This document shows positions 39,943 to 58,430 of a DNA stretch of 64,000 bases, piece by piece; positions within the stretch are counted from its first letter, which is position 1, and every line of letters starts with the position of its first letter. The stretch comes from Desulfomonilia bacterium (GTDB lineage Bacteria; Desulfobacterota; Desulfomonilia; UBA1062). The position numbers and the translations under genes are program-made. Location: assembly GCA_036567785.1 (NCBI GenBank), contig DATCTV010000035.1:1-64000 (forward strand), read 5' to 3'. The notes beneath the pieces are model-generated. The model saw only the letters and a program-made list of their open reading frames with translations. It was not told the DNA's origin and searched no databases.

Positions 39943-40631
39943 TCAACCCTCCTGTCCTCTGTTATCTCCCCGTCTTTCATCATGATAAGCCTGTGCGCTC
40001 GCTCCATAACCCTTGAATCATGCGTCGAGAAAAGAAACGTTGAGTTGTGGTCGTGATTAAGACGCTCCATCAGCACCAGCAGAGACTCGGCGGTCCTGGA
40101 ATCCACATTTGCTGTAGGCTCGTCGGCAAGGATAAGGGCCGGGTCCGACACCATGGCCCTTGCAATTGCGACGCGCTGCTGCTGGCCTCCGGAAAGCTGG
40201 TTCGGTCTTCTGTCGGCAAGATCCGCCATACCGACTTCATCAAGAATGGCCATAACCCTTTCCCTTCTTTCCTTCTCGTGAATTCCCTGAAGAACCAGCA
40301 CGAACTCGGCATTTTCATAGGCGGTAAGTACAGGGATAAGGTTGTAGGCCTGAAACACGATCCCGATCCGGTTCATTCTCATAATCGAGAGCTCGGCCTT
40401 TGACATTTCGGCTATATTCCTGCCTTCCACCACGATTTTTCCCGAACTCGGGGTATCGAGCGCACCTATCAGGTTGAGAGCCGTAGTCTTGCCCGAACCC
40501 GACGGACCGCAAAGGGCTGCAAACTCACCTTTTTTCACCGAAAGAGATATCCCGTTAAGTGCATATGTCTCGACATCACCTGTTATGTATATTTTTTTTA
40601 CGTCTTCAAGCCTTACGATCTCTTCATTCAT
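39939..40631 (-). CDS. ABC transporter ATPase, LolD-type
   Basis: A 230-residue ATPase of the MacB/LolD class. Walker A is GPSGSGKTT (about 40-48), the signature [14 protein letters not shown], Walker [13 protein letters not shown], and the H-loop is in FSTHDSR. It pairs with the two FtsX-type permeases directly upstream and would power extraction of lipoproteins or a small molecule from the inner membrane. It begins 36 bases after the second permease. Confidence 0.93.
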
Positions 40632-40667
40632 CCTTTAACTCCGGAACCTGAATTTGTCCTTTCCTGC

Positions 40668-41900
40668 TTAAATTATCTTTATCGTCTCGACCGGGTTCGT
40701 CCTTGCAGCCAGAAACGCCGGATAAAGGCCGGTTGTCATTATCAGCAGCATTATCGCACCGATGATATTCGCAAGATGTCTGGGGATGATGGCCCCTTTT
40801 ACAAGGGGCTCGAAAATAATCCCGCCAATAGTATTCTCTCCATTGGAGAGGAAGATGGAAAAATCAATTCCGTAGACATGAAGATACCAGTATACGGGAG
40901 CCGTGAGAATAAAGCCCGCAACAAGTCCGGCCACGGCAAGCCAGAATGCCTCGGCCATGACCAGTCTTATGATCTTTCCCGGCGTCATGCCCATTGATAT
41001 CATTATGCCGAATTCGCGCATCCTTTCAGTCACGCCCATGAGTATAGTGTTCAGGATACCGGCTGAAATCAAAAGAAAAATAAAAATCTGGAATATCACT
41101 GACGAGGTCATGTCCATTGTCATGTATCCATAGAAATCGGGCATGAGCACGGACCACGGCAATGAGACTCCGCCGTAATTCTTCGACAGGGGAAGCATCT
41201 TTTCCGCTATTTTCTCCGAATCCCATCGCTCTTTGACGTAAACCGCTATATGGCTTGATTCACCGGAATTATATCCTATCTGTGAACGGACAAAACCTAT
41301 GGGCATTATGACAATATTATTGTCGGCCTCATTCATGCCGGTCGAAAATATGCCAGAAACCTTGACAAGGAAATTGACGACCTGGCCGTGCCTGTCCGTA
41401 GTGGTGATCACAAGTTTTTTACCTGGCCTCAAATCGAGCTGCTTCGCCATCAAGGAACCGATAAGCGCATGCGCCCCGTCACCCGGAAGCCCGGAACCCG
41501 CTTTAATATGTTTGAAGAAATACATTGTGTCATTTTCTTTTTCCGGATCTATTGCAATATAACCCATTCCTGTCGAATCGGCAGCCGAAGAAGCCATCCC
41601 CTGGCCCACAACCCTTTCCCTCAATGCCTTAACACCTTTAAAGCGCGCCAGCTTTTCCATAAGCTCCCGGGTGTTTGATATGACCTTGTCGGACCCCGGA
41701 TGATCCCTGTAATCCTCGGGTTCGACGGTTATGTGCCCTGCCCCCATGTCGGCGGCGATATCTATCATCCTTCCGTATGAACCGTCCGAAAGGCTTGTAA
41801 ATACGATCGTCAGCAGGAATCCGAATGAGATTGAAATCAGGGTGATTATTGTCCTGCGTTTGTTCCGCCACAGGTTTCTCCATGCGAGCTTTAATATCAT
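40668..41900 (-). CDS. ABC transporter permease, FtsX/LolC type (second)
   Basis: A 410-residue permease with an N-terminal helix opening LKLAWRNLWRNKRRTIITL, a large periplasmic domain (about 45-265), and three C-terminal helices (about 270-290, 320-345, 375-395), the FtsX/MacB layout. The ending TNPVETIKII is typical. It starts 10 bases after the first permease and is expected to form a heterodimer with it. Confidence 0.9.
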   Translation of the reverse strand: MILKLAWRNLWRNKRRTIITLISISFGFLLTIVFTSLSDGSYGRMIDIAADMGAGHITVEPEDYRDHPGSDKVISNTRELMEKLARFKGVKALRERVVGQGMASSAADSTGMGYIAIDPEKENDTMYFFKHIKAGSGLPGDGAHALIGSLMAKQLDLRPGKKLVITTTDRHGQVVNFLVKVSGIFSTGMNEADNNIVIMPIGFVRSQIGYNSGESSHIAVYVKERWDSEKIAEKMLPLSKNYGGVSLPWSVLMPDFYGYMTMDMTSSVIFQIFIFLLISAGILNTILMGVTERMREFGIMISMGMTPGKIIRLVMAEAFWLAVAGLVAGFILTAPVYWYLHVYGIDFSIFLSNGENTIGGIIFEPLVKGAIIPRHLANIIGAIMLLIMTTGLYPAFLAARTNPVETIKII

Positions 41901-41910
41901 CCGGGTTTCC

Positions 41911-43137
41911 TCATGTGTAATGAATGGCCCTGATAGGATCCAGTCTGGCCGCCCTTATCGCCGGTATTGCACCGGCCGCCAGCGAAAACACAAACAGCGC
42001 CGCAAGGGGAGTAAGAACGGCAAAGGGTGTAAGATAGGAAAAAAGGGCAAGGCTGACGGCCACCCCCGAAATGGTTCCACCGTCCACAAGAACGGAGAGA
42101 TCGATGCCGTATGTCTGAAGGCTTATTGCAAGAGGTATGCTGAATGCAAGGCCTATAACCGCCGCAGCTGCCGCCTGGACAAGTATTTCCACAATCACCA
42201 TACAAAAAATATCAAAAGGGGTCACACCCAGGGCCTTCATCATTCCGTATTCACGAATGCGCTCGAAAACGGCCATGAGCATGGCATTGAGTATGACTAT
42301 GGAGATCGCCGCAGAAGTAATGATTACCAGGAATATCATGACAATATCGAGTATGTTTATAATATTCGCCAGAGCCGGATTAAGCAGCTGCCATGACCTT
42401 ATGTCCTGGCCCCTGCATATCCCTTCAACTATTCTCAACGCTATATTCGAATCGTATCCGGCAGGTATCATGACTGCTATTTCGTGCGCGCCTTCCGGCA
42501 TCACCATAAGGTCCCTGAATGTGTTTATTGGCATGATAAATCCGGCACGGTCGGTTATTTCACTAACGGATTTGAGAATTCCCCTCACCCTGAACAGATC
42601 ATTTGCAATCGACCCGTCGGCGGCCTGCGAGACTATGACTATCTCATCCCCGATGCCTGCGGAAAGGCTTCTGGCAAGCCTTTTGCCGATCACGACCCCT
42701 TTCGGATCCGCATTATCAAGCCATTTGCCGTCCATCAGCTGCCGGGGCATCTTAAACGCCCAATTCTCCGCTGAAGCGTCCACACCCTCTATCAGAACGC
42801 CGGCCGAAGACTCATCCTTTGCGGCAAGCCCGCTTGAGAACAGCCTTGGAACGGCCTTGAAACCTCTTGAGTCGATGGCCCTGATATAATCATCCGGGCT
42901 GCTGATCATTTTATAAACGGATCTCGTCTCGAGGTACCCCGGGGCATGAACCTGGATACTGCCCATCTGCATGGAAACTGCATTATCAGCCATGCCCCTG
43001 CTGTATCCGTCAGTCAGACTCAGGTATATAATCATCATGCCAAGCGCAAAAGCCATTACAAGAGTGGTTATGGCGCTCCTTCTTCTAGCCCTGAAGACGT
43101 TCCTGAAAGAAAGCTTTATGATGCTTGCCGGTTTCAA
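41911..43137 (-). CDS. ABC transporter permease, FtsX/LolC type (first)
   Basis: A 408-residue FtsX-type permease with helix 1 opening KLSFRNVFRARRRSAI, a periplasmic domain (about 45-260) and three C-terminal helices, ending ARLDPIRAIHYT. It starts 2 bases after the LolA-like gene. The two permeases differ enough in sequence to be old paralogues that work together. Confidence 0.9.
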   Translation of the reverse strand: MKPASIIKLSFRNVFRARRRSAITTLVMAFALGMMIIYLSLTDGYSRGMADNAVSMQMGSIQVHAPGYLETRSVYKMISSPDDYIRAIDSRGFKAVPRLFSSGLAAKDESSAGVLIEGVDASAENWAFKMPRQLMDGKWLDNADPKGVVIGKRLARSLSAGIGDEIVIVSQAADGSIANDLFRVRGILKSVSEITDRAGFIMPINTFRDLMVMPEGAHEIAVMIPAGYDSNIALRIVEGICRGQDIRSWQLLNPALANIINILDIVMIFLVIITSAAISIVILNAMLMAVFERIREYGMMKALGVTPFDIFCMVIVEILVQAAAAAVIGLAFSIPLAISLQTYGIDLSVLVDGGTISGVAVSLALFSYLTPFAVLTPLAALFVFSLAAGAIPAIRAARLDPIRAIHYT

Positions 43138-43139
43138 TC

Positions 43140-43889
43140 CTATCTCCTCAGTTCGGCAATGGAAAAAAATCCTTTCTTGAACGAAACATCGAATGTCAGA
43201 TCGCTGTATATGACCTCGGTATATTCACCGGGCTTATCCAGCGGGGACATTACAATCCTTGTTGGTACCAGCCTTCCCGAGACGGTCTTGTAATCAGAGC
43301 AGGTCATTATCCTTACGATTTTTCCATCCTCGTCGTAGTATGTGTTCTTTACGGGCATCCAGTCCGAGGCACGGGCCACAACTACAATTTTTCCCCATAC
43401 GACCGGGGCATCGGGCTTAGGTGTGAGTGTTATCTCGATAACATCCTCCGAGTCGCGTCTGCCCTGAAAAGTTATCCTGGCATTGTAGTCTTCGGATAGC
43501 CTGCTTCCCTTCACGAGGTCGTCATTATTAAAGTGGCTGCCCATCCATGACCCCATCATCATGGCGGAAGTAAGCTTGATCGTCCTGTCCGTCTTGGGAA
43601 GATAATTATAAATCTCGTCAAATACCTTAAGGGTGGCAGTTCCCTGCTCCTTCATCGGCAGAATGACCTTCACGAGGGAATAGTCCTTTCCCTGCGAGTA
43701 CACATCCATTGTAAGGGACCTCTTCCAGTTCGATGTTTTGACATTCATAACCATCTTTCCCTTTGAGGAAGTCCCGCGCCACAGGTCGTCCTGTTTCGCA
43801 AGCACTTCATGGGCCTCAGGAGTCTTTGCCCCGAGCATCGCAAAAACAGCAGCCATAACGGCAAACAGACACATCCTTCTCGAATTCAT
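43140..43889 (-). CDS. LolA-like outer-membrane lipoprotein-sorting protein
   Basis: A 249-residue exported protein with signal peptide (cleavage near AKTPEAHE) and a fold signature of the LolA/LppX-like family: LWRGTSSKGKMVMNV, SLVKVILPMKEQGTATLKV, and EIYNYLPKTDRTIKL. The ATG at 43889 is chosen because GGAGG lies just upstream and it yields a normal signal peptide. It is the first gene of a run of LolA-like protein, two permeases, ATPase and a beta-barrel, suggesting a trans-envelope route for a lipid or lipoprotein. Confidence 0.87.
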   Translation of the reverse strand: MNSRRMCLFAVMAAVFAMLGAKTPEAHEVLAKQDDLWRGTSSKGKMVMNVKTSNWKRSLTMDVYSQGKDYSLVKVILPMKEQGTATLKVFDEIYNYLPKTDRTIKLTSAMMMGSWMGSHFNNDDLVKGSRLSEDYNARITFQGRRDSEDVIEITLTPKPDAPVVWGKIVVVARASDWMPVKNTYYDEDGKIVRIMTCSDYKTVSGRLVPTRIVMSPLDKPGEYTEVIYSDLTFDVSFKKGFFSIAELRR

Positions 43890-44042
43890 GCATCCTCCGC
43901 AGAAAAGATATTCATTCAGTGACAAGTCCTATACCATTTTATTTTTATTAAACGCAGACCTTTTGTAATAATAAATTATTCAAGTCAGTCCACAATATAT
44001 TCCGATATATAAAAATATTTCGGTTCAAAAAAGGTGAGCGTT

Positions 44043-46376
44043 ATGACCACTTCGAAACGGCTTGAGAATGCCCTTCTTACAGGCAATACCGCTGATGAAG
44101 AAGCATCAAAGCTCAAGGCTGCATTCGAGCTCAATCCCGGCGCACTCTCCATATCGACATTCGACGAGGGAGTATTCATAGAGGTCAATGATAATTTCTC
44201 ACGCATATCAGGCTATGAGAAAAATGAGATCATCGGCAGAAGCGCCTTTGAAATAGGCTTCTGGAAAGATCCTCAGGACGGCCTGCGGTTGAGGAAACTG
44301 CTGGAAACAGAAAAAACGGTCCGGAATTTTGAATTCGAGACCAGGAAAAAGAACGGTGAATCCGCCTGGATACTTCTTTCAGGAACGCTTATCAGCTTCG
44401 GAGGCAGGCGGTGCATATTCGCTCAGTCTATCGACATTACCGAAAAAATCGTTGCGGAAAAGGCCATTAAGGCCAAGACCGAGGAGCTTGACCAGTTTTT
44501 TACAAGTGCACTCGACCTTTTGTGCATTGCGGATACCGACGGCTATTTTATCAGGCTTAATCCGATGTGGTCAGAAGTGCTCGGCTATCCGCTCACCGAA
44601 CTTGAAGGCAGGCGCTTTCTCGACCTGGTCCACCCGGATGACATTTCATCGACAATGGAAGCAATAAAAAAGCTGGACAGCGGAACCAATGTGCTCAATT
44701 TCAGCAACCGCTACCGTGCAATTGACGGCTCCTGGCGATGGCTCGAATGGAGATCCTTTCCGTACGGCAACAAGCTCATATATGCAGCAGCAAGGGATGT
44801 GACTGAAAGGATAATGGCGGAAAAGGCTCTCAGAGAAAGCGAGGAAAAGTATCGTATAATATCCGAAAACACGGGCGACGTCATATGGGTGCTCGACCCT
44901 TTATCAGCGAAATTCACATATGTCAGTCCTTCGGTAGAACGGCTGAGGGGTTTCACGCCCGAAGAGGTAATGTCCCAGCCACTCGAAAATGCCCTCACGC
45001 CCGAATCCTTTACCAGACTTGCCAATGAACTGCCGGGTGCGATTCAGGCTGTCGAATCAGGAGACGAAAAGGCAAGGGTACGTTTCGATTATGTCGACCA
45101 GCCGCACAAGAACGGTTCAATCGTAAATACCGAGGTAGTCACCACTTTTCTCACCGGAGACGATGGAAAAGTGATTCATATTGTAGGCGTCTCGAGAGAC
45201 ATAACCGAGCGCAAGGCCAATGAGGAAACTCTGCGTGAAGTCCAGAAACTGGAAAGCCTTGGCGTGCTTGCCGGAGGCATCGCTCATGACTTCAACAACC
45301 TGTTGATGGTGATACTCGGGAATATCGACATGAGCCTGATGTCAATACCTGAAAATTCACCTGTGGTTAAAAATCTGAAGGCCGCTGAAAAGGCATGCCA
45401 GAGTGCAGCCGACCTGACCAAGCAGATGCTGGCATATGCCGGGAAAGGCCAGTTTTTCCCGCAGGAGATAAGTTTCGAGGACATTATTTCAGAAATTGAA
45501 ATGGTCATGTCAATTTCCATATCCAGGAAGATCAGCCTCAAATGCAGGATAGATAAAGCTGTTCCCGGCATAATAGCCGACCCGGGACAGATGAAGCAGA
45601 TGATCATGAATCTTGTAATGAACGCATCCGAGGCGATAGGAGACAGACAGGGGGACATCACTGTTTCCATCGGAATATATGATCCAACGGCAAGCACTTC
45701 GAAGAAGGGTACGGTATTCCTCGAGAAAAATCTCATTCCGGGTTCATACGCCTTTATTGAAGTTGCAGATACCGGTGAAGGAATCGATGACAAAAGCATC
45801 CCCAAGATATTCGACCCGTTCTTCACCACCAGGTTCACAGGCAGGGGGCTGGGGCTTTCCGCTGTCATGGGCATTGTGAGAAGCCTTAAAGGCGCAGTGA
45901 GGGTAGATAGCCAGACAGGCAAAGGCTCTGTATTCACCGTTTACATTCCTGCCGCAACCCCAAGGAAGAATTCCATAAAAACCGGGCCGGAAGTCCAGCG
46001 TAAAACTGTCCTTATCGTCGATGATGAGGAGGACGTCGTGAGACTTGGCTCTCAGATGCTTGAAAATCTAGGTTATATAGTAATGGGAGCGAAAAACGGA
46101 GCCGAAGCCCTCGAAATTATCAGAAATCATGAGGCAGACGGCACAACCCGGATTTCTGCGATTATCCTTGACATAGGCATGCCGGTCATGAACGGCGAAG
46201 AACTTTATGAAGAGCTGATGAAGATGGGCTGTGATATCCCCATATTCATTTCAAGCGGTTATGGTGAAACATACGTCGAAGAACGCTTCAAGGGCAGCAA
46301 GGTGGCCGGAATGCTTCATAAGCCCTATAAATTCGAAGCACTCAAAAAAATGCTGGAGGATTATTTTACCATCTGA
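44043..46376 (+). CDS. Hybrid sensor histidine kinase 2 (soluble, three PAS, REC)
   Basis: A 777-residue kinase with no membrane segment. Three PAS domains (about 20-135, 150-255, 275-390) precede the phospho-acceptor histidine in GGIAHDFNN, an HATPase domain (N-box MNLVMNASEAIG, DTGEGID, GRGLGLSAV) and a receiver with phospho-Asp in ILDIGMPVMNG. The ATG at 44043 has AAGGTGA ahead; an in-frame GTG at 44034 is an alternative. It is 29 bases from kinase 3, and both probably share one transcript with the HMGR-like gene. Confidence 0.92.
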   Translation: MTTSKRLENALLTGNTADEEASKLKAAFELNPGALSISTFDEGVFIEVNDNFSRISGYEKNEIIGRSAFEIGFWKDPQDGLRLRKLLETEKTVRNFEFETRKKNGESAWILLSGTLISFGGRRCIFAQSIDITEKIVAEKAIKAKTEELDQFFTSALDLLCIADTDGYFIRLNPMWSEVLGYPLTELEGRRFLDLVHPDDISSTMEAIKKLDSGTNVLNFSNRYRAIDGSWRWLEWRSFPYGNKLIYAAARDVTERIMAEKALRESEEKYRIISENTGDVIWVLDPLSAKFTYVSPSVERLRGFTPEEVMSQPLENALTPESFTRLANELPGAIQAVESGDEKARVRFDYVDQPHKNGSIVNTEVVTTFLTGDDGKVIHIVGVSRDITERKANEETLREVQKLESLGVLAGGIAHDFNNLLMVILGNIDMSLMSIPENSPVVKNLKAAEKACQSAADLTKQMLAYAGKGQFFPQEISFEDIISEIEMVMSISISRKISLKCRIDKAVPGIIADPGQMKQMIMNLVMNASEAIGDRQGDITVSIGIYDPTASTSKKGTVFLEKNLIPGSYAFIEVADTGEGIDDKSIPKIFDPFFTTRFTGRGLGLSAVMGIVRSLKGAVRVDSQTGKGSVFTVYIPAATPRKNSIKTGPEVQRKTVLIVDDEEDVVRLGSQMLENLGYIVMGAKNGAEALEIIRNHEADGTTRISAIILDIGMPVMNGEELYEELMKMGCDIPIFISSGYGETYVEERFKGSKVAGMLHKPYKFEALKKMLEDYFTI

Positions 46377-46405
46377 AGAAGACACTTTGATCCGGAGGCG
46401 GCTGA

Positions 46406-48652
46406 GTGGATGTAAAAACCCTGTTCATACTCAATATCCTGATAGCCTATCTCATGGGCGGCACTATGCTCATCTTCATGCGCCTGCAGAAAACGCACAG
46501 GGGGTTCGGCTGGTGGACTGCCACCGCCATCATGGCAGGCGCAGGATACTCTCTTGTACTTGCAAGGATTTTTTTCAAAGGCCCTATAGCTGATTTCCTG
46601 ACATTCGTTATCGCAAATACGTTTATATCGAGTCTCCTGCTTTTCAGGCTTCAGGGCGCGAGAAGATTTTTCGGACATGGCAGTATATCACCCGCATACC
46701 TGATAATTCCTGCCCTGGTTTTCATTTCATATTGTTATTTTGTCTACATTACGCCTGATGTCCCGAAGCGTACGTTTTCATCGAGCCTGTTCATATCGTT
46801 ATCTGCATTTATTCTGGCAAGAGAGTTCATCATAAACAGAAAATCGGGAAGCACTCTGCTCAATCTGATCATAGCGTCAATGAACATTTTTTTCGGACTG
46901 ACCTTTTTTTCAAGAGGTTTATATATCCTTATCTCCCGGGATTACCGGTTTTTATCAAACAATCCTTTGGATATGGCGTTCTTCACAATGCTGCCCGTTT
47001 TCGAAGTGACATGGAATGTATTTTTCATACTTCTGAACAGTCAGCGGACATATTACGACCTTGATGCGGCAATGAGGGAAAAAGTAAAGGCGGATGAGGC
47101 AGCAATAGCCGCAAATACGGCCTACCGTGAAATATTCGATAATGCCAATGACGCCATCTTTATTGACGATATGAATACCGGCTCCATGATTGACGTCAAC
47201 AAAAAGATGGTTGAAATGTACGGTTACAGCCGTGAAGAGGTCCTTAAAATCGACATAGGAACGTTAAGCTCCGGAGAACCCGGGTATACTCAGGAGGATG
47301 CAATCGGTCTGGTTAAAAAAGCGATTGAAGGTCAACCTCAGGTATTCGAGTGGAAAGCCAAAGACAAGAGCGGCCGCATATTCTGGGTAGAAGTCAACTT
47401 GAAACGTGTTTCACTGGGTGGCATCGACAGGGTTCTCGCCATAGTCAGGGACATTGACGACAGGAAACGCATCGAGGAGGAACGCAGGAAAAACGATGAA
47501 AAACTCCAGCAGGTGCAGAAACTGGAGAGCCTGGGTGTGCTTGCCGGAGGCATTGCGCATGATTTCAACAACCTGCTCATGATCATCCTCGGCAATATCG
47601 ACATGAGCATGATGTCGGTCCCACCGGATTCCATCGTGGCTAAAAACCTGGAAAACGCTGAGAACGCCTGTATCAACGCAGCCGAACTTACGAGACAGAT
47701 GCTTGCTTATGCAGGCAAGACACAGTTTGCTGTTCGGGATGTGAACTTGAACGAGATTATTTCAGATATGGACACGGCCGTTTCTGTGGCTGCGTCAAAG
47801 AAGGCGGAGATAAGATACTGCCTCTATGAAGAACTCCCTTGCTTTACTGCCGACCCGGGTCAGATAAAACAGCTGTTAATGGCCCTTGTGATGAATGCAG
47901 CAGAGGCTGCAGGTGAAAACGAAGGCTTCATAACCGTTAAAACAGGTGTTTGCGTTTATAAAGATATAACATCGGGAAAGAAAAAGATATTCCTTGCTGA
48001 GAATCTCAAGGAAGGTGAATACGTATTTCTTGAGGTTTCCGATACGGGTTGCGGAATTGAAGAGGAAATGCTGACGAAGATTTTTGACCCGTTCTTCACG
48101 ACAAAATTCGTTGGAAGGGGTCTGGGTCTGGCAGCGGCAATGGGAATCATAAAAAGCGTAAACGGCGCAATCAGTGTGGAAAGCAGTCCCGGCAAAGGCT
48201 CTGTCTTCACATTCTATTTTCCTGTTTCTGAAATTCGAGAAAAAAAGGAAAACAAACTCCAGCGGAGAAAGACAGTACTTCTTGTTGATGATGAGGACAG
48301 TGTCCTTGAAATCGGCGCACAGATGCTTGAAAAGCTCGGATTTGAAACAATCACGGCAAAAAACGGGGCGGAGGCGCTCGATATCGTGAAAGACCGTACC
48401 TGTTCCGGCTCCCCCATATCATTCATTATTCTGGATATAGGCATGCCTCTCATGAATGGGGATGAGACGTATGCCGAAATCGTAAAGGTTGATGAGAAAA
48501 TTCCTGTCTTTATTTCGAGCGGCTATGGAGAAAACGACATAACCAAGCGTTTCAGCGACAAGAAGATCGAGGGTATGCTTCACAAACCCTACAAGCTAGA
48601 GGACATGAGGAAACTTTTTAACGGCTTCTCAAACAGTGATGCCGTGAAGTAA
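46406..48652 (+). CDS. Hybrid sensor histidine kinase 3 (7TM, one PAS, REC)
   Basis: A 748-residue kinase with a seven-helix N-terminal module (about 1-215) related to those of kinases 1 and 4, one PAS domain (about 240-355), histidine in GGIAHDFNN, an HATPase domain (VMNAAEAAG, DTGCGIEEE, GRGLGLAAA) and a receiver (ILDIGMPLMNG). GTG at 46406 is the start, with GGAGG 7 bases upstream. Its catalytic core is closest to kinase 2. It is followed after 36 bases by the HMGR-like fusion. Confidence 0.92.
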   Translation: MDVKTLFILNILIAYLMGGTMLIFMRLQKTHRGFGWWTATAIMAGAGYSLVLARIFFKGPIADFLTFVIANTFISSLLLFRLQGARRFFGHGSISPAYLIIPALVFISYCYFVYITPDVPKRTFSSSLFISLSAFILAREFIINRKSGSTLLNLIIASMNIFFGLTFFSRGLYILISRDYRFLSNNPLDMAFFTMLPVFEVTWNVFFILLNSQRTYYDLDAAMREKVKADEAAIAANTAYREIFDNANDAIFIDDMNTGSMIDVNKKMVEMYGYSREEVLKIDIGTLSSGEPGYTQEDAIGLVKKAIEGQPQVFEWKAKDKSGRIFWVEVNLKRVSLGGIDRVLAIVRDIDDRKRIEEERRKNDEKLQQVQKLESLGVLAGGIAHDFNNLLMIILGNIDMSMMSVPPDSIVAKNLENAENACINAAELTRQMLAYAGKTQFAVRDVNLNEIISDMDTAVSVAASKKAEIRYCLYEELPCFTADPGQIKQLLMALVMNAAEAAGENEGFITVKTGVCVYKDITSGKKKIFLAENLKEGEYVFLEVSDTGCGIEEEMLTKIFDPFFTTKFVGRGLGLAAAMGIIKSVNGAISVESSPGKGSVFTFYFPVSEIREKKENKLQRRKTVLLVDDEDSVLEIGAQMLEKLGFETITAKNGAEALDIVKDRTCSGSPISFIILDIGMPLMNGDETYAEIVKVDEKIPVFISSGYGENDITKRFSDKKIEGMLHKPYKLEDMRKLFNGFSNSDAVK

Positions 48653-48688
48653 TGACAAATATCCTGACATTCATACACAGAGGTAATT

Positions 48689-51430
48689 ATGGCCGAAGAT
48701 TCGCATGAACAGATGGAGGGCCTGGAAGACCGGCATTATTATCATCAGGGAAGAGAACCTAAGGTTGTTTTATTCATAAAAAACGGTTCATATTCAGGGC
48801 TCGTTGACAACTACTGGCGGAACGGACTTACGATCAGCCTGTCCGCGGAACTGCCCGTGAACCCGAACGAGACGATAAAAAGCATTTTTTTCGAACAGCT
48901 CGGTAAAGACTACATCATCGAAGGGATGCGCGTGCTCAACTATTCATGGAACGGGGCCACAGGGACGGGAACACTCGAGCTATACGCTCCCGATCCGGAA
49001 ACAGAAAACCTTTTTGAAAAGATTTTCGACGCACTGTTCGAGAAACCCCCCGATGACCCTGTCGACAGGTTTGAAAACAGTAATATGCCGCAATATACCG
49101 GCAGGGAGCATTATTCAATGGATGCCATGAAGGCTCGCCTGGAATGGGTCAGGGATGTTTCCGGCGCACAGCTCAAGCACCTGCCAAAAAGCATGTTCAC
49201 GCCTGAAAACGTGGCGGGAAACATAGAAAACTATATTGGCGCCGTGCAGATTCCGGTCGGCATTGCAGGACCCATAAAGATATCAGGCACCTATACCCAC
49301 GGCTTCATCCCGGTACCGATAGCTACGACTGAAAGGACTCTAGTCAATTCGATCTGCCGTGGCGCAAAGGCATGCAACGCATCAGGAGGCATCACCACAT
49401 ATGTTACGGGACAGAGCATTTACAGGGTGCCGGTTTTCTTCTGCAGGGACATGTTCGGCGCCATCAATCTTGAGAAATGGATAGTGGCAAATACCGACCT
49501 GATAAAGACTGCAGCTGAAAGCATAACCTCGATTGCAAAGATAAAGGATATCAAACCCTACACCTACGGGGATTCGGTTCATGTAAGGTTCACTTATACG
49601 ACAGGCGATTCATCCGGCTGGAACATGACATCGTCCTGCACCTGGATGGCATGCGAGTTCATAGCAGGTCAGGCCGTGGATAATCCAGCGCTCAAATATG
49701 AAGGATACAACCTTGAAAGCAATATGAGCGGCATCAGAAAGGCTAATTTTCAGAGCCTTATCCAGGGCATGGGCGTAAGCGTGATGGCTTCATGTTTTTT
49801 GCCGGAGGATATAATAAAAGAGAACCTTCACTGTTCGATAAAGGAATTCATGCGAAGCTACAATGCCTTTGAACTCGGTGAAGTGCAGATCGGTACACTC
49901 GGGAGAAACTACAACTTCGCCAGCGCGGTTGCAGGAATATTCACGGCCACAGGTCAGGATATCGCCTGCGTACATGACTCGTCCATCGGAATTTTCCAGG
50001 CCAGAGCCGAAGAAGACGGGATCACCTTTTCCGCATATCTGCCGTCGCTTGTAATCGGTACGGTGGGTGGAGGGACAAGGCTTCCGACCCAGCGTGACTG
50101 TTTGAAGCTTCTTGCATGCTACGGCGAAGGAAAATCATTCAGGCTTGCTGAAATTATCGCATCGGCCTGTCTGGCTCTGGATATCTCAACAGCGGCATCC
50201 ATCGCCACAAACGAATTCGGAGGAGTCCAGGAAAAGGGTGAGCCTTCGAGACAGGCAAAATACCTGACACGATCTGATCTGACTCCTGCGTTTTTTTCAT
50301 CGATGCTGCATGGAAGTGAAACCTCCGTCGAGTCGGTGGAGGAATATCCTTTCGGCTGCAACTCGGCCATAATATCAAATCTTGCCCAGAGCACAATGAA
50401 CATACAGGGATTGTACAGGTTTGTCCTGAAGCTCAAGGCACCGGAAGGGCCATGCAATGTTCCGGCAGTGCTGAAGGTCAAAACCGCTGATGTAGAGCTC
50501 GTCGACATGGCGGTGAATCTTGCCCGTCTGTCAGGGGAAGACCGTCTGCCGGGTCTTATTGAGTCGCATGCCCCGATTTTCGGTTTCGAGAGAAGCCAGG
50601 AAAGGGAGGCCAATTTCTACCGGCATGCGAAACCGGAAATCCTGCAGTACTGCCCGAAGATTTACGGCACCATGATCGACCTCAAAAGAAACATCTTTTC
50701 CATACTTATGGAAGACCTTTCGGAAATGAGCCATCTTGACACGGTCAATAATATCTCCGCCTGGAGCGAATCCGATATCATTGACGTCATAAACGACATG
50801 GCCTGCATGCACAGCATATATCTCGACAGGTTCGGGGACGTTCCGAGGCAGATGCACATCAATATGCTCACACCGGAATACGCCGGCAGCACATCGGAAT
50901 TTCTCATAGACCTCACACAGTACAATCACAGAAGATACCCCGGCATGATTACCAGGGAAATGGAGCTCTTTTTCACCGACGTCCTGAGGGAAGCGCCATC
51001 ATTCGCAACCCAGATGAATGAATTTCCATCCACCCTTACGCACAATGATTTCAACATCAGGAATCTGTGCCTCAGACCCCCCGGAAAAGGATCCAGGCCA
51101 AGACTGGTTCTATACGACTGGGAACTTTCGGCCTTCCAGAATCCACAGACTGACCTGCTGGAGTTTCTCATTTATACACTGCCCCACGGCACCGGGATCA
51201 GCGTTTATGACGTTTTCACCGACAGATACATCGACAGTCTGTCAAGATGCTCCGGCAGGGTTTTTGAAAGAAAAGCCTTCATGCGCATCATGTATCTTAA
51301 TGCATTGAAGATGGCTGCAATAAGATTCAACCTCTATCTGCTGGCTCATAATGTGGCGCATTTCCCTTTCCTGGAAAGGGTATACGGAAACCTGGCTGAT
51401 TATATCAAACAGAAAAGAGGAATTGTTTGA
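48689..51430 (+). CDS. HMG-CoA reductase-like / APH-type kinase fusion protein
   Basis: A 913-residue three-part protein. Residues about 24-100 form a small beta domain resembling PilZ. Residues about 145-520 match class I HMG-CoA reductase: IENYIGAVQIPVGIAGP (179-195), catalytic-type Glu215 in ATTERTL, TTGDSSGWNM (304-313), Lys351 in GIRKANF, Asp424 in TGQDIA, and the IGTVGGGT loop (456-463). The usual C-terminal histidine motif is not seen. Residues about 570-913 match aminoglycoside/choline-type kinases: Lys in VLKVK (594-598), Glu640 in EREANFY, catalytic HNDFNIRN (785-792) and metal-binding YDWE (809-812). AGAGG lies 5 bases before the ATG. Substrate and reaction are unknown. Confidence 0.8.
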   Translation: MAEDSHEQMEGLEDRHYYHQGREPKVVLFIKNGSYSGLVDNYWRNGLTISLSAELPVNPNETIKSIFFEQLGKDYIIEGMRVLNYSWNGATGTGTLELYAPDPETENLFEKIFDALFEKPPDDPVDRFENSNMPQYTGREHYSMDAMKARLEWVRDVSGAQLKHLPKSMFTPENVAGNIENYIGAVQIPVGIAGPIKISGTYTHGFIPVPIATTERTLVNSICRGAKACNASGGITTYVTGQSIYRVPVFFCRDMFGAINLEKWIVANTDLIKTAAESITSIAKIKDIKPYTYGDSVHVRFTYTTGDSSGWNMTSSCTWMACEFIAGQAVDNPALKYEGYNLESNMSGIRKANFQSLIQGMGVSVMASCFLPEDIIKENLHCSIKEFMRSYNAFELGEVQIGTLGRNYNFASAVAGIFTATGQDIACVHDSSIGIFQARAEEDGITFSAYLPSLVIGTVGGGTRLPTQRDCLKLLACYGEGKSFRLAEIIASACLALDISTAASIATNEFGGVQEKGEPSRQAKYLTRSDLTPAFFSSMLHGSETSVESVEEYPFGCNSAIISNLAQSTMNIQGLYRFVLKLKAPEGPCNVPAVLKVKTADVELVDMAVNLARLSGEDRLPGLIESHAPIFGFERSQEREANFYRHAKPEILQYCPKIYGTMIDLKRNIFSILMEDLSEMSHLDTVNNISAWSESDIIDVINDMACMHSIYLDRFGDVPRQMHINMLTPEYAGSTSEFLIDLTQYNHRRYPGMITREMELFFTDVLREAPSFATQMNEFPSTLTHNDFNIRNLCLRPPGKGSRPRLVLYDWELSAFQNPQTDLLEFLIYTLPHGTGISVYDVFTDRYIDSLSRCSGRVFERKAFMRIMYLNALKMAAIRFNLYLLAHNVAHFPFLERVYGNLADYIKQKRGIV

Positions 51431-51468
51431 ACAAACAAGAACATGCGTTTACATAAGTGTGATTTTCT

Positions 51469-51503
51469 GTGCGGTCAACACCGGCTGCAGGTGTTGACCG
51501 CAC
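51469..51503. terminator. Long perfect hairpin between convergent genes
   Basis: A perfect 14-bp stem GTGCGGTCAACACC/GGTGTTGACCGCAC with a 7-base loop lies just after the HMGR-like gene and before the aor stop. The T runs on either side are short, so it may act as a terminator or transcript-stabilising hairpin. Confidence 0.65.
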
Positions 51504-51519
51504 TTGAAATTATCTCACA

Positions 51520-53511
51520 TCATACACCGAAGAGCTGATCAAGTCCGAGCTCTCTCATTTTTGCCGGTGTCGGTTTTCCCGTATCCTGCTCCCAGCCGAC
51601 GGACTGGAAGAAGTATCCCTGGAGCATATCTATGTCTACGGTCTTTCCTTTGTTCGGCCCAGATGCCAGCGGCTTCTTACCTATGGCAAGCGCATGCACT
51701 TTCTGATCCTGAGGTGTAATTCCTTCGCGCACGTTGAACGCCTTGCGCAGACTCAGTATCCTCTCTCCGGTTTCATAATACTCATCCGCGCTCATTTCCC
51801 ATCCGGTGACGGCGTTCAGATATTCGAACAGGGGAAGTGCGGATGTAATCCTGCCGAACAGACACATGCCGCATCCGTTCATAAGCTGCATGTAAATGCT
51901 TGACGCCGCGTAGAGGTATGCATTCTTCTGATTTTCATTCAGTGCTCGTTTGAGCGCCCTCTGCACCTTGGGCACCATATCCTGCACCCTGAAGAGGTTG
52001 GCGTGCATATAACAGCCTATGGTATGGCGGCCCGGAGTCGGTTCGCACTGGTATGCAATCGCATATCCGGCGTCGTTTCTGGGGTCGTGCAGTGGAAGTT
52101 CCTGCCCGCCGGCATGTACAGCATAGGCCTCGGAGCCCTTGCCTATCCTTTCGCTGGCCCTTTTCACCCCGTCTGCCAGCAGATCGCCCAGGCCTTCGCG
52201 GTTTATGATCATTTCCGTTAGCTTAAGGATCGATTCACCATTGCCCCATTTGAGTGCTATTCCACCGGTATCCTTCACTGACAGAATGCCGTGTTCGAAA
52301 CAGTCGATTGCAAAAGCGCACGCTGCGCCGGTAGATATTGTATCGATTCCTGCCCTGTTGCACATCTCGTTGAGTTCGATCAGCGTGTCTGAATCGTCAA
52401 CCAGTGTCAATCCTCCGAAGGCGCCTACAGTCTCATACTCTATCTTGTGTCCTTGTGTCCCTGCGTACCGGCCTTTTTTTATGTCGATTATACCTCCGCA
52501 TCCCAGCGGGCATCCCTGGCAGGCATACTTTTTCTTCTGCCGCTTAAGGATGCTCTCGTCGGAATTCTTGGCCGCGCTCTTCATCGTATAGTCCGTATAT
52601 CCTACCCCGCCCCAGTTCTTGATTGGCGTATCGCCTGTCATGAAGGAGTACACAAGGTTCCCGGTCGTACCGTATTTCTTGAGTATCTCGCGCACCATGG
52701 ACGGGTGGGCAGGAACGGACATCCCTGTCCAGTAGATCATTTTAGTGACGATGTTATTGAGCAGTCGCAGCGATATGCGGTCAGCCAGCTTGGACTGTTT
52801 GAATTCCTTCATATATTCAGAGTTTATCGCCTTGAGTTTTTCCGGATAGGCCACAGGCACTTTCTTGTTTCCGCGCACTGCAACAGCCTTGAGCTTCTTG
52901 CTGCCCATGACGGCGCCGAGCCCTGACCGCGCCGCAATCCTGCCTCCGTCGTGAACTACACCGGCCAACCTTGAAAGACGTTCGCCGCTCTGGCCTATAC
53001 AAGCTACTTGAACCTTTTTGTCGCCAAGAATCTCTCTAATTGACTCTTCAGTCTCTATTGCATCTTTTCCCCAGAGAGATCCTGCGTCCTTGATCTCTAT
53101 ACCCGATTCGGTAATCAGTACCCATACCGGTTTTTCAGCCGCACCGGTAAAAAATACCGCATCATATCCGGCCGCCTTCAGTTCCTTCGACAGGAATCCG
53201 CCTGAATTGGCGTCCCCCCATCCGCCGGTGAGAGGCGATTTGCCGACCACCATAAAACGTCCGGCAAAGAAACATCCCGTCCCGGTCAGCAGTCCCGTAC
53301 AAATTCCCACATGGCTTTCCGGAGAAAGGGCATCGATCCCCGCAGGCTGACGTTCCGTGATCACGGCAGCTCCAAGTCCGTATCCTCCCAGATACTTCCT
53401 GTAAAAATCATCTCCGGGTTCTACGACTTCCGTCTTGCCGGTCGTCAGATTGATTATGCAATACTTACCGACATAACCGCCTTTGGGAACCGTGTTTCTA
53501 TTTGTTTCCAT
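51520..53511 (-). CDS. Aldehyde:ferredoxin oxidoreductase
   Basis: A 663-residue tungsten/molybdopterin enzyme that oxidises aldehydes or reduces acids with ferredoxin. The N-terminal domain (GKYCIINLTTG, LGGYGLGAAV, TGCFFAGRF, GGWGDANSGG) is typical; the 4Fe-4S ligands appear as CQGCPLGC (Cys331, 334, 338) with a fourth cysteine near NGCGMC (about 553). The pterin-binding GGQELPLHDPR segment is present. AAAGGAG lies 6 bases before the start. It is 33 bases after the SDR gene and so last in a padR-SDR-aor operon. Confidence 0.93.
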   Translation of the reverse strand: METNRNTVPKGGYVGKYCIINLTTGKTEVVEPGDDFYRKYLGGYGLGAAVITERQPAGIDALSPESHVGICTGLLTGTGCFFAGRFMVVGKSPLTGGWGDANSGGFLSKELKAAGYDAVFFTGAAEKPVWVLITESGIEIKDAGSLWGKDAIETEESIREILGDKKVQVACIGQSGERLSRLAGVVHDGGRIAARSGLGAVMGSKKLKAVAVRGNKKVPVAYPEKLKAINSEYMKEFKQSKLADRISLRLLNNIVTKMIYWTGMSVPAHPSMVREILKKYGTTGNLVYSFMTGDTPIKNWGGVGYTDYTMKSAAKNSDESILKRQKKKYACQGCPLGCGGIIDIKKGRYAGTQGHKIEYETVGAFGGLTLVDDSDTLIELNEMCNRAGIDTISTGAACAFAIDCFEHGILSVKDTGGIALKWGNGESILKLTEMIINREGLGDLLADGVKRASERIGKGSEAYAVHAGGQELPLHDPRNDAGYAIAYQCEPTPGRHTIGCYMHANLFRVQDMVPKVQRALKRALNENQKNAYLYAASSIYMQLMNGCGMCLFGRITSALPLFEYLNAVTGWEMSADEYYETGERILSLRKAFNVREGITPQDQKVHALAIGKKPLASGPNKGKTVDIDMLQGYFFQSVGWEQDTGKPTPAKMRELGLDQLFGV

Positions 53512-53544
53512 AAAAGTCTCCTTTCATCCTTGTAATATACAGCC

Positions 53545-54375
53545 TTATTCCTGAATTCCCATATGTTTCAGGAACAGGAAATCCACAATTTTCTGAGGCA
53601 GACTGGACATGATCGCCAGATTGATCGTATCCTTCCGGGTTATCTGATTATGCAGTTTCGGATTCGGAGACTCAACAACCTCTGCTATCCTTTGAGCGGC
53701 CTGAAACGGTGTCGGTGCGCTTTTCAATATCTCGCTGTTCTTGGTGGAGAATTTGACCACCCTCTCATAATAAGGCGAGTCCTTTGGCGGCCTCGTATGG
53801 CTCTTTGCCGCAAACTGGGAAGAAACCTGACTCGGTTCCACTAGAGCTACTTTTATCCCGAAAGGCTCGACCTCATATCTCAGAGAACATACCAGTCCTT
53901 CGACGGCATATTTCGCCGCCGAATATATCGATTCGAATGGAAACGGCATGCGGCCTACCATGGAGGCCATAACAACAAGCTTGCCTGCCCTGTTTTTCCT
54001 CATGGAAGGAATGAATGCCTGGAGCAAGGCGGCCGCACCGAATACGTTTATCTCGAAATTCCTGACCGCCTTTTCAAGATCGACCTCTTCAAAGGGTCCG
54101 AAAAACCCCACTCCGACATTGGAAAGCACGGTGTCCACATGGCCGAATTCCTTGAGAACTTCATCCCTGAACCTGAAGATGCCTGGACGATCGGTTATGT
54201 CAAGCGGGACAAGATAATGCTGGACGCCTTTTCCGCCGAGTTCTTTTTTTAGTGACTCAAGTCCATCCTTATCCATGTCGAATCCTGCGATAGACATTCC
54301 CTTACCGGCAAGGATTTTTGCAACCTCACGACCCATACCCTGCGCCAGTCCGCTTATCACCACTACCTGATTCAT
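53545..54375 (-). CDS. Short-chain dehydrogenase/reductase
   Basis: A 276-residue SDR. The nucleotide loop is SGLAQGMG (about 8-15), the structural motif NVGVG (86-90), and the catalytic set is Ser138, Tyr151 and Lys155 (SIYSAAK). An acidic residue after strand 2 (GFDMD) suggests NAD preference. A hydrophobic C-terminal helix ends it. AAGGAGG lies 4 bases before the start. It is between the padR-like gene and aor and may supply or remove the aldehyde or alcohol linked to that enzyme. Confidence 0.9.
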   Translation of the reverse strand: MNQVVVISGLAQGMGREVAKILAGKGMSIAGFDMDKDGLESLKKELGGKGVQHYLVPLDITDRPGIFRFRDEVLKEFGHVDTVLSNVGVGFFGPFEEVDLEKAVRNFEINVFGAAALLQAFIPSMRKNRAGKLVVMASMVGRMPFPFESIYSAAKYAVEGLVCSLRYEVEPFGIKVALVEPSQVSSQFAAKSHTRPPKDSPYYERVVKFSTKNSEILKSAPTPFQAAQRIAEVVESPNPKLHNQITRKDTINLAIMSSLPQKIVDFLFLKHMGIQE

Positions 54376-54414
54376 ATATCCTCCTTAATAGGAACTTCGT
54401 TCTCATTTGATCCT

Positions 54415-54660
54415 TTATTGAAAGCCAATATTTATTATTTGGAATTGAATGTAATTTGACCATAAACCTGAAATACCCGGATGATCCGACTCCTTATTGC
54501 TTATAAGTCCTTCAGCCTTAAAGGTTTTCAGATTGGAATAAAACCGGGCATGGTTAATTGGCCAGACAGGTTTGAATGACCTTTCAATCCGCTTTTTAAT
54601 CTCACACACGTGTATGCCCCTGCAATGAAACAAACCGGATATCGCATGTCCAACCGCCAT
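54415..54660 (-). CDS. Short PadR-like transcriptional regulator
   Basis: An 81-residue protein whose residues 3-58 resemble the PadR winged-helix domain: AISGLFHCRGIHVCEIKKRIE, the W-P-INHARFYSNL recognition part, and LKTFKAEGLISNKE. The wing after residue 58 and the C-terminal dimer helix are missing, so it is either a truncated remnant or an unusually short regulator. GGAGG lies 9 bases upstream and a near-consensus promoter with a palindrome over its -10 precedes it. It heads the operon with the SDR and aor genes, 39 bases before the SDR. Confidence 0.65.
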   Translation of the reverse strand: MAVGHAISGLFHCRGIHVCEIKKRIERSFKPVWPINHARFYSNLKTFKAEGLISNKESDHPGISGLWSNYIQFQIINIGFQ

Positions 54661-54682
54661 ATATAAAGGCCTCCAAACATGG

Positions 54683-54701
54683 TATATATATTTTATATAT
54701 A
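54683..54701. promoter_or_regulatory. Palindrome over the padR-like promoter
   Basis: TATATATA-TTT-TATATATA is a perfect inverted repeat with a 3-base centre. It covers the -10 element of the padR-like gene's promoter, the position where an autorepressor would act. It is pure A/T, so some symmetry by chance is expected. Confidence 0.45.
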
Positions 54702-54720
54702 TCTAATGTATATATGTCAA
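54692..54720 (-). promoter_or_regulatory. Promoter of the padR-like/SDR/aor operon
   Basis: On the minus strand a perfect -35 TTGACA (54715-54720) and a -10 TATAAA (54692-54697) are 17 bases apart, about 32 bases upstream of the padR-like start. This is the strongest promoter by eye in the window. Confidence 0.75.
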
Positions 54721-54910
54721 CTTTGAATTATTCCTGTTGGGTGTTGGCTGTATAGATGAAGATAATTTGATTAATTAGTCGATATCACGGACTTTTCGAA
54801 TCAATGTTATGATTTGGATTCTCCACAAAAAAAATTTCCTTATGAATCTTAATCAGGCTCAGGTTTTACGAATCTTCGTATCATTTTCTATCACGCAATC
54901 ATTTTAATCT

Positions 54911-57127
54911 TCATGCATATTGTTCCTCTGCAAGAACCTTCTTTAACATTCCGGCAAGATTATCAATCTTGTATGGCTTCTGGATAAAACCGGAAAGGCC
55001 GTATTCCGGAAAACGATGCACTACATCGTGCTCGCTGAAGCCGCTGCTTACTATGACCTTCACTTCGGGTTTAACGAGCTTCATTTCACGGTAGGCCTCA
55101 TCTCCGCCCATATGGGGCATTGTCAGGTCAAGAATTACACAGACGATCTCATCCTTGAATGCATTGAACACATCGAGGGCTTCCTTGCCGTCGGCAGCCA
55201 GAACAACGTCGAATTCCATGCCTTCGAGTATCTGGCGGCCCAGAGATCTTATGGGCTCCTCATCATCAACCAGCAGTATGGTACCGCTTCCTTTCCAGTC
55301 AGCATCATGAACATTAACTTCCTCCGGTAAAAAATCTTCATAATGCACCGGAATCGGCAGCAGCACCTTGAAAACCGTTCCCTTGCCGGGCTCGGTCAAG
55401 ACCGACAAACCTCCGTTGTGGCTTTTTATAATCCCCTGCACGGCTGAAAGGCCCAGCCCCCTGCCTGTAAATTTTGTTGTGAAAAACGGATCGAATATCT
55501 TCGAAAGTGTCTCATGATCCATTCCGCAGCCGGTGTCCGCGACTTCAAGATACACATAATGCCCTTCCGGGAGATCACCGTTCATCCTGTTTTCAATCAT
55601 GAAACTGCCGTCGCATTCGATTATTCCGGTGGATATATTGATAACCCCGCTTTTATCGCCCACGGCTTCGGATGCGTTGATTACAAGGTTCATAATTATC
55701 TGCTGCATCTGTGCTACATCAATCTCTACAAGGGGCAGCCCCTTTGCCAGATTATAATTCAAAACAGCTTTCTTTGATATCGACACATCAAGTATGCCGG
55801 TCATTTCCCTTACCAATTCCGAGATATCGACAGGCTTGACCACGAACAGGCCTTTCCCTGAATATGCAAGCATCTGCCTGCAGATTTCGGCTGCTCTTAT
55901 AGATGCCTTATTTATATTTTCCAGCCGCAGCCTCAAGGTTGACGATTCAGGAGCTTCATCAAGGGCAAGCTCCGTATTGCCGAGAATGGCTGTAAGTATA
56001 TTGTTGAAGTCATGTGCTATTCCCCCGGCAAGAATTCCTATGGATTCAAGCTTCTGGGAATGGTGAAGCTGCAGTTCGAAGCGTTTCTGCTCTTCCTGAG
56101 CATTCTTTATTCCGGTGATATCGGCAATCGTGGCAAGGATATTGGTATTGCCGTTGATGGTCATCACCTCAGCTGAATAAAGGCCGGTGATGGTCTCCCC
56201 CGTTTCCTTCCTGAACTGAAATTCCCTGCTGCTTATTCTTTTGTTTGCCGCCAGGTCTTCAATAACAGAGGATCGCTCATCCATATTCACCCAGAGCTTG
56301 ATTTCAAGAGTCGTCTTTCCGATAACATCCTCGCGGTTGAATCCTGTAATATTGATGAACCCTTCATTGACATCCAGAATACGCCCGTCATTGAAATCGG
56401 TAAGCATGATTGCATATGGTGACGATCTGAAAACTGTTTCAAACTTGTCTTCGCTTTCCCTGAGTTCATTCAGAGTACGCTGCGAATTGACGAACAGAAG
56501 GCTTATGCCGAGCCCTATATTGAAAACAGGGGTGGTAAAGAACAGGATGATATTGAAAAAAACAGGGTCCAGCATTCTGTATTCGGGCATGAACAACCAG
56601 AAGGTGGAACGTAAAAGCAGCACAAATCCCCATGCAAGATTGATCAACCCCACAGCAATATACAGTATGTTCCTTTTTCCGCTCCATCGGAAAAACACGG
56701 CCGAGGTGAAAGCAAAAACAAAGAACATCACAGCAGAAAAGACAAGGTTTCTCACTGCAACCGCATCATTCCAGATAAGGAAGTAGCTCATGACAGCCAG
56801 CGTGACTGCGGGAAGCAGATAAAAGGACTTCCAGAGCTTTTTTGCGAGGACGAATCTGAATGTGCCGTCGAGCCTTATAACGATTGCGAGTATCAGCAGA
56901 AAGTTCTGCAGGAAAAAAAATTCAAAGGAAAGAAACCTGTTTGATTCAACATCCGGAATACCCCTTGCAGCCATTGACAGGTATGCAAGAAATAATACCA
57001 GTGATCCTGCCTGCCAGTGACCGAAACCATAATAGGTTTTCTGGGTCTTTTCATAAAATATGAACATCAGCCATATGCTGAAACTGACAACAGCTTCACT
57101 CATAATCAGGGTGTTGATATCAATCAT
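54911..57127 (-). CDS. Hybrid sensor histidine kinase 4 (7TM, one PAS, REC)
   Basis: A 738-residue kinase with an N-terminal block of about seven membrane helices (1-215; MIDINTLIMSEAVV at the start), a PAS domain (about 230-345), the phospho-acceptor histidine in GGIAHDFNN, an HATPase domain (MNLVINASEAVG, DTGCGMD, GRGLGLSAV) and a receiver with phospho-Asp in ILDLTMPHMGG. The segment around SKKAVLNYNLAKGLP is nearly the same as in kinase 1, showing close paralogy. It has no regulator partner next to it. Confidence 0.92.
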   Translation of the reverse strand: MIDINTLIMSEAVVSFSIWLMFIFYEKTQKTYYGFGHWQAGSLVLFLAYLSMAARGIPDVESNRFLSFEFFFLQNFLLILAIVIRLDGTFRFVLAKKLWKSFYLLPAVTLAVMSYFLIWNDAVAVRNLVFSAVMFFVFAFTSAVFFRWSGKRNILYIAVGLINLAWGFVLLLRSTFWLFMPEYRMLDPVFFNIILFFTTPVFNIGLGISLLFVNSQRTLNELRESEDKFETVFRSSPYAIMLTDFNDGRILDVNEGFINITGFNREDVIGKTTLEIKLWVNMDERSSVIEDLAANKRISSREFQFRKETGETITGLYSAEVMTINGNTNILATIADITGIKNAQEEQKRFELQLHHSQKLESIGILAGGIAHDFNNILTAILGNTELALDEAPESSTLRLRLENINKASIRAAEICRQMLAYSGKGLFVVKPVDISELVREMTGILDVSISKKAVLNYNLAKGLPLVEIDVAQMQQIIMNLVINASEAVGDKSGVINISTGIIECDGSFMIENRMNGDLPEGHYVYLEVADTGCGMDHETLSKIFDPFFTTKFTGRGLGLSAVQGIIKSHNGGLSVLTEPGKGTVFKVLLPIPVHYEDFLPEEVNVHDADWKGSGTILLVDDEEPIRSLGRQILEGMEFDVVLAADGKEALDVFNAFKDEIVCVILDLTMPHMGGDEAYREMKLVKPEVKVIVSSGFSEHDVVHRFPEYGLSGFIQKPYKIDNLAGMLKKVLAEEQYA

Positions 57128-57815: not shown

Positions 57816-58430
57816 TTATCCCGCAGGCTTCATTATCCAGAAAACAGAAACAATAACGGCAAGGGCCGGGAATATCACATAGAAAATACCCTTCGGCTTC
57901 GGGAACGGAACCTTAAGCAGAAACAGAACGCCCACAGCCGCATATGAGGCGCGGACCGTCCAGATGTATGAAGGTCCGGAAAGCATAAACTTCACAGAAA
58001 AGACAAGCGGGAATATCATTGCCGAGAATGTGACTGGCAGGCCGGTATAAAACTTGACCGGCCCTTCCCCGATAAGACCTGAGATATTGAAATGTCCGAG
58101 CCTCATGGCTGCGGCACAGCAGTAAGCTGTCAACAATATATGATCAACAGGCGAATTGAACCCAGAGTGAAGTGCGATCATGGCGGGTGCCGCACCGAAA
58201 TTGACAATATCGTTTATCGAGTCGATCTCTGCACCGAATGCCTTTTCCTGTTCGTTCAAATCGAACCTGCGTGCTATGAAACCGTCGAACAGATCGGATA
58301 TGCCGGCCCATATCAGGCAGACAAGGGCATATCCTATATAACCGTTAAATGAAAAAATGCATGACGCCATACCGAAAATGAGCGCCAGAAAAGAAACAGC
58401 AGTAGGAATGTTATAGACTCCCAGAAACAT
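57816..58430 (-). CDS. pssA: CDP-diacylglycerol-serine O-phosphatidyltransferase
   Basis: A 204-residue membrane enzyme that makes phosphatidylserine, the precursor of phosphatidylethanolamine. The CDP-alcohol transferase motif is seen as DLFDGFIARRF with GAEIDSINDIV (D-G-x2-A-R ... G-x3-D-x3-D), and about six membrane helices follow the type II PssA plan. AAGGGG lies 7 bases before the ATG. No psd gene is nearby. Confidence 0.88.
   Translation of the reverse strand: MFLGVYNIPTAVSFLALIFGMASCIFSFNGYIGYALVCLIWAGISDLFDGFIARRFDLNEQEKAFGAEIDSINDIVNFGAAPAMIALHSGFNSPVDHILLTAYCCAAAMRLGHFNISGLIGEGPVKFYTGLPVTFSAMIFPLVFSVKFMLSGPSYIWTVRASYAAVGVLFLLKVPFPKPKGIFYVIFPALAVIVSVFWIMKPAG

Follow-up and report, generated by a model that had tools for sequence, protein, structure and literature searches.

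A single open reading frame on the forward strand (48689 to 51430) of the window, the whole 64,000-nucleotide stretch of Desulfomonilia DNA analysed here, joins an HMG-CoA reductase (HMGR)-like domain to an APH/choline-kinase-type domain. What such a protein does, and whether both of its halves still do it, is the question raised by this locus. The initial annotation offered two answers: that the protein reduces an acyl-CoA-derived substrate and phosphorylates the product, or that a retired reductase fold serves as a ligand sensor for the kinase.

Domain architecture of the fusion protein

The frame opens with ATG and runs for 913 codons with zero internal stops, preceded by a well-spaced AGAGG that is a plausible ribosome-binding site. 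The claim of an unbroken fusion is thereby borne out, the same architecture recurring across phyla in relatives 42 to 46% identical over their full length. Promoter and terminator matches occurred at chance level. The Pfam search suggested for this gene identified residues 147 to 510 (49127 to 50218) as a class I HMGR domain (HMG-CoA_red, E = 3.1e-92; 309.9 bits against a curated cut-off of 27), and by sequence its nearest relative of known structure is 6hr7, the class I HMGR from Methanothermococcus. Fold and the motifs ATTEG, GDAxGxNM, DKK, GQD and GTVGGG are common to the family and class I HMGRs (6hr7; human 1dq8). The family differs from these in its fused kinase, in having GDAAGQNM for GDAMGMNM, and in the replacement of the HMG-carboxylate lysine, Lys735.

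The kinase domain spans residues 545 to 905 (50321 to 51403), as delineated by Pfam, conservation and the fold model. EcKL was matched at residues 638 to 854 (E = 1.7e-8), with APH slightly below its cut-off. Both the HxDxxxxN and DxE motifs and an APH/choline-kinase-like fold are present, so that the phosphotransferase signature first read by eye (HNDFNIRN and YDWE) is upheld by the EcKL match and the kinase folds alike. The HNDFNxRN catalytic loop, the YDWE metal motif and an invariant N-lobe KxK are shared with APH, choline kinase and EcKL proteins; in this family, however, the kinase sits C-terminal to an HMGR domain. From its motifs, the kinase half is predicted to phosphorylate a hydroxyl group of a small molecule.

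Structural modelling agreed with both assignments. AlphaFold predicted the whole fusion with a pLDDT of 85.6 and the kinase half with a pLDDT of 93; Foldseek aligned the whole-chain model with HMGR folds and the kinase model with PsiK, LicA, Rv3168, choline kinase and 25-hydroxysteroid kinase. The model and the alignment also delimit an N-terminal beta-barrel domain (residues 20 to 118; 48746 to 49042). No Pfam family matched this region of approximately 100 residues, which occurs in many non-Bacteroidota members and is missing from Bacteroidota members. A PilZ identity, suspected by eye, had no Pfam support and is not claimed; a tree of the domain was set aside as it had one usable column.

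The fusion is a widespread family

Full-length fusions were recovered from three more of 395 sampled genomes of the phylum (42 to 44% identity), all in one other family, and two further fusions in the phylum, the fourth and fifth, are interrupted by contig ends. The survey of genomes proposed at the outset was extended to GTDB species genomes, where scanning with an alignment revealed approximately 40 further fused loci; a contig scan with a single fusion protein as the query returned no matches. The hosts include Nitrospiraceae and Desulfobacterales MAGs, four Paenibacillus species, Streptomyces mashuensis, Streptomyces huiliensis, Marinobacter, Moraxellaceae, Beijerinckiaceae, Rhodococcus, Bdellovibrionota, Myxococcales and many Bacteroidota, including Kordia isolates. 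No viral contigs carrying the fusion were found.

The fused reductases cluster together in a tree that also places a few unfused sequences, actinobacterial and other, among them, and in one member of the Acidimicrobiia (L093) the halves are encoded by separate genes lying side by side. An assembly or gene-prediction artefact merging two genes, the refutation originally envisaged, is itself refuted by the recurrence of one full-length architecture in independently assembled genomes of different phyla, isolates of Paenibacillus, Kordia and Streptomyces among them. The reductase-kinase pairing is a widespread family rather than a local oddity.

The reductase half of the window copy is degenerate and the kinase half conserved

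Catalysis by human HMGR depends on E559, K691, D767 and H866, and its HMG pocket includes S684, D690, K691, K692 and K735 (PMC7503714). In the window copy, Glu215 corresponds to E559 and Asp424 to D767, and both are retained. Lys351, however, which the initial annotation listed among the HMGR landmarks, corresponds to K692, the second lysine of the DKK motif; the catalytic K691 position is occupied by Arg350 and that of D690 by Ile349, such that D-K-K of the family has become I-R-K. Hence Glu215, Asp424 and the GTVGGG loop stand as landmarks, while Lys351 as the catalytic lysine does not. In addition, R361 of the GRG motif is replaced by methionine (GMG), and the catalytic histidine (H866; within SAHERLGRNR in relatives) is absent, the corresponding site (50219 to 50260) reading GGVQEKGEPSRQAK in a region of low model confidence. 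The active site previously taken to be complete is not so, its decay having been overlooked.

The other aligned fusions conserve ATTEG or TLEG, DKK, GRG, GQD and a C-terminal HE(R/K)LGRN, whereas the window copy alone has TTER, IRK, GMG and no histidine. The catalytic glutamate, DKK, aspartate and histidine are kept in these other fusions, as in class I HMGRs, and the losses of the K691, D690 and histidine positions are limited to the window. Thus, the catalytic Glu/Lys/Asp/His set is complete in intact relatives but reduced to Glu215 and Asp424 in the window copy, which therefore has an HMGR fold without the full catalytic set. Considering positions at least 97% conserved in other members, 15 of 77 near-invariant reductase positions are altered in the window copy (0 to 3 in ten other members), as against none of 24 in the kinase (0 to 2 in controls). 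The loss thus falls mainly on the reductase and spares the kinase.

Judging from these residues, the window copy has probably lost its reductase activity and become a kinase bearing a pseudo-reductase half. The fusion itself is the single HMGR match in the window genome; no second, intact HMGR was found there, and the kinase half alone looks active on sequence grounds. Each of the two original answers thus fits a different protein. Reduction followed by phosphorylation is best supported for the family, since the catalytic residues persist in the other aligned members; for the window protein, with its lost residues, a retired reductase fold is the more fitting interpretation. The window copy also offers a natural pseudo-reductase/kinase for comparison with its active sisters.

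Intact relatives adjoin membrane-lipid genes

In three relatives (G321, G302 and G392) the fusion belongs to a six-gene operon with genes for a PPDK_N/PEP-utiliser protein, a UbiA-like protein, a CDP-alcohol phosphotransferase, a PS-decarboxylase-like protein and a CarS-like protein. A fourth genome (G420) matches this operon across two contigs, with the non-fusion genes on the second. Among the matches listed for six fusion-less genomes of the same family (G240, G340, G374, G423, G282 and G410), there was neither CarS nor UbiA.

Similar partners recur elsewhere. Within 10 kb of the fusion at 46 loci, counted by hand and with many contigs ending early, we found PEP-synthase-like genes at 28, CarS-like genes at 27, UbiA-like genes at 22 and CDP-alcohol transferase genes at 20, including the window. 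The CarS label is Pfam-backed at two loci (L039 and L096) and similarity-based at the others. In Marinobacter and Moraxellaceae the order is LolA_like, a Pfam-less protein, MMPL, UbiA-like, fusion, PEP-synthase-like, a second Pfam-less protein, AMP-ligase and CDP-alcohol transferase, the Moraxellaceae locus additionally having a CarS-like protein. In some Flavobacteriales and Bdellovibrionota the fusion is accompanied by CarS-like and PEP-synthase-like proteins, a possibly UbiA-like membrane protein, a methyltransferase, an acyltransferase and a desaturase. PS decarboxylase, acyl ligase, acyltransferase and MMPL/LolA export genes are partners at some loci only. The divergent UbiA-like group of Marinobacter was linked to the Pfam-recognised UbiA-like group by profile comparison (probability 99%), and six of its nine members match UbiA directly; the small Bdellovibrionota/Flavobacteriales UbiA-like group gave no Pfam UbiA match. 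Separately, MMPL-like and squalene-hopene-cyclase-like reading frames were seen by eye in translations near the fusion of Streptomyces mashuensis (L070:9965-20986).

The association of intact relatives with membrane-lipid genes points to an undescribed lipid pathway. We found no paper in the open-access literature describing the pairing or the gene set, in keeping with the earlier remark that no described enzyme with an HMGR-kinase pairing was known. The family is apparently undescribed, combining known enzyme kinds within a set of lipid genes that itself seems undescribed. The suggestion of an undescribed system therefore holds for the literature searched, with the correction that the system is this wider gene set and not the window gene alone.

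Mevalonate is disfavoured as the product

The closest parallel to the operon is the archaeal ether-lipid head-group pathway (UbiA-type DGGGP synthase, CarS, archaetidylserine synthase and a decarboxylase), of which the relatives have UbiA-like, CarS-like, CDP-alcohol transferase and PS-decarboxylase-like counterparts. Their operon differs in adding the reductase-kinase and a PEP-synthase-like enzyme, and the hosts are mostly MEP bacteria; neither GGGP synthase nor G1P dehydrogenase was seen within it. The intact catalytic residues of the relatives, together with the use of UbiA, CarS and CDP-alcohol enzymes in archaeal lipid synthesis, would accord with a bifunctional mevalonate enzyme that converts HMG-CoA to mevalonate, which a mevalonate kinase of non-GHMP type then phosphorylates, for isoprenoid or archaeal-type lipids.

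We consider this decidedly unlikely. Of the 24 genomes examined, 21 gave no HMG-CoA synthase (PF01154) match, the window genome (G000) among them, and 18 encode IspH of the MEP route, again including the window genome; the set includes two genomes (G010 and G007) with unfused HMGR-like genes instead of the fusion. Moreover, the position of the HMG-carboxylate lysine, human K735, is occupied by lysine or arginine in 0 of 47 fused and 0 of 66 unfused relatives, selected by patterns typical of this HMGR-like branch and therefore not representative of bacterial HMGRs at large. When L021 is aligned pairwise with human HMGR, an alanine falls at this position. As the lysine is missing from every unfused bacterial HMGR-like sequence sampled, its loss is not specific to the fusion. 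Taken together, the missing HMG-CoA synthase, the MEP route and the missing lysine indicate that the intact enzyme is probably not a mevalonate enzyme, and the window copy further lacks the catalytic lysine and histidine. Mevalonate and HMG-CoA are thus disfavoured as substrates.

Few enzymes have been studied as thoroughly as HMGR, which is usually read as a mevalonate marker, whereas this branch occurs mostly in organisms in which HMG-CoA synthase was not found. Automatic annotation is likely to label the fusion genes as HMG-CoA reductase, so that a mevalonate pathway may be called too readily in many genomes.

A proposed role in the synthesis of a membrane lipid

Clues to the chemistry came from three directions. 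In a Riflebacteria locus (L105:8123-11134), an AMP-binding ligase, a weakly scoring carrier domain and an HMGR-like reductase form one chain, suggesting that the acyl thioester to be reduced is bound to a carrier. In the window's family and in G361, a genome of another family, unfused HMGR-like genes (L042, L043 and L044) adjoin LPG_synthase_C genes of aminoacyl-lipid type, and that of G361 (L044) also adjoins a PfaD-like gene. Among PDB profiles, the kinase half matches the APH domain of ACAD11 best, albeit weakly (E = 3.5e-4). ACAD10/11 and LvaA phosphorylate 4-hydroxyacyl-CoA (PMC11342911); like the fusion, ACAD10, ACAD11 and bacterial LvaA place an APH-type kinase on one chain or in one operon with an acyl-CoA enzyme, although their partner is a dehydrogenase acting in catabolism and that of the fusion family a reductase. 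The fold search favours amine, choline and sugar kinases over ACAD11, leaving the substrate ambiguous from fold. Taken together, the carrier-fused reductase, the LPG_synthase_C and PfaD-like neighbours and the ACAD11 match favour a reductase-kinase that would act on (hydroxy)acyl thioesters to yield a phospho-alcohol for CDP activation. An unfused HMGR-like gene on a Sinorhizobium medicae plasmid (L153:8963-13672) lies within an acyl-CoA carboxylase/biotin carboxylase cluster; being unfused and so placed, the Sinorhizobium plasmid matches were ruled out as members.

The best explanation as a whole, to which we assign a probability of roughly 0.5, is a reductase-kinase family that feeds a membrane lipid, of which the window member would be a reductase-dead form with its kinase retained. 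In intact members, the class I HMGR-like, NAD(P)H-dependent half would reduce an acyl thioester, probably a hydroxyacyl one, bound to a carrier or to CoA, rather than HMG-CoA, to an alcohol, and the fused kinase would phosphorylate the product. The CarS-like cytidylyltransferase, CDP-alcohol phosphotransferase, UbiA-like and PEP-synthase-like proteins may then incorporate the phospho-alcohol into a membrane lipid. In the window member, the kinase half would act on a hydroxylated lipid precursor, the HMGR half possibly being kept as a dimerisation or substrate-holding scaffold. The data directly show the fusion and its conservation, the residue losses, the conserved kinase, the neighbouring genes and the failure to find HMG-CoA synthase; we infer the loss of reductase activity, the substrate, the product, the order of the steps and the role of the dead half.

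A fuller version, put forward tentatively at a little short of even odds, is a horizontally spread pathway to a lipid of no known structure. Its backbone or head-group alcohol would be released when the HMGR-fold enzyme reductively off-loads a hydroxyacyl thioester, to be phosphorylated at once by the fused kinase and then CDP-activated by the CarS-like enzyme, with the window protein a kinase bearing a pseudo-reductase regulatory half. The gene set provides a testable lead to this lipid in culturable Paenibacillus, Marinobacter, Kordia and Streptomyces.

Surroundings of the window copy

The sole recognisable partner near the window fusion is a CDP-alcohol phosphotransferase (archaetidylserine/PssA-like; 57816 to 58430, reverse strand), 6.4 kb away. 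It is 42 to 43% identical to that of the intact operon, as against only 25 to 31% for CDP-alcohol transferase matches in seven other genomes of the family. Homologues of CarS, UbiA and the PPDK/PEP-synthase-like protein were not found in the window genome; thus, of the UbiA, CarS and CDP-alcohol transferase trio that is complete in the relatives' operon, it has the last only, and the window protein may do something else.

These missing partners, the lost reductase residues and the single HMGR match in the genome could mean that the gene is a functionless relic, still decaying, of a lipid pathway gained by horizontal transfer. This is unlikely, given a stop-free frame, intact near-invariant kinase positions and the retention of the CDP-alcohol transferase. 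A further alternative is suggested by two genes for PAS hybrid histidine kinases on the same strand (44034 to 46376 and 46406 to 48652), which may form a co-directional group, possibly an operon, with the fusion, the second ending 36 bp upstream of it. With its reductase half catalytically decayed yet still in frame and structured, the protein could be a CoA or acyl-CoA sensor controlling its own kinase or the neighbouring histidine kinases. We regard this as rather unlikely: among the inspected loci, no relative is linked to a histidine kinase, and similar histidine kinases recur across the window, such that their adjacency to the fusion may be due to chance. A third such gene lies at 54911 to 57127 on the reverse strand, and the three flank the fusion within 44034 to 57127. 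The reductase-dead kinase with a lipid precursor as its substrate remains the preferred reading of the window protein.

Further upstream, an export group on the reverse strand (39939 to 43925) comprises an ABC ATPase, two MacB/FtsX-type permeases and a LolA_like protein; some other bacteria also have such genes close to their fusions, an association that is at most suggestive. Downstream, on the opposite strand (51520 to 54375), an aldehyde-ferredoxin-oxidoreductase-like and an SDR-like reading frame were recognised by eye.
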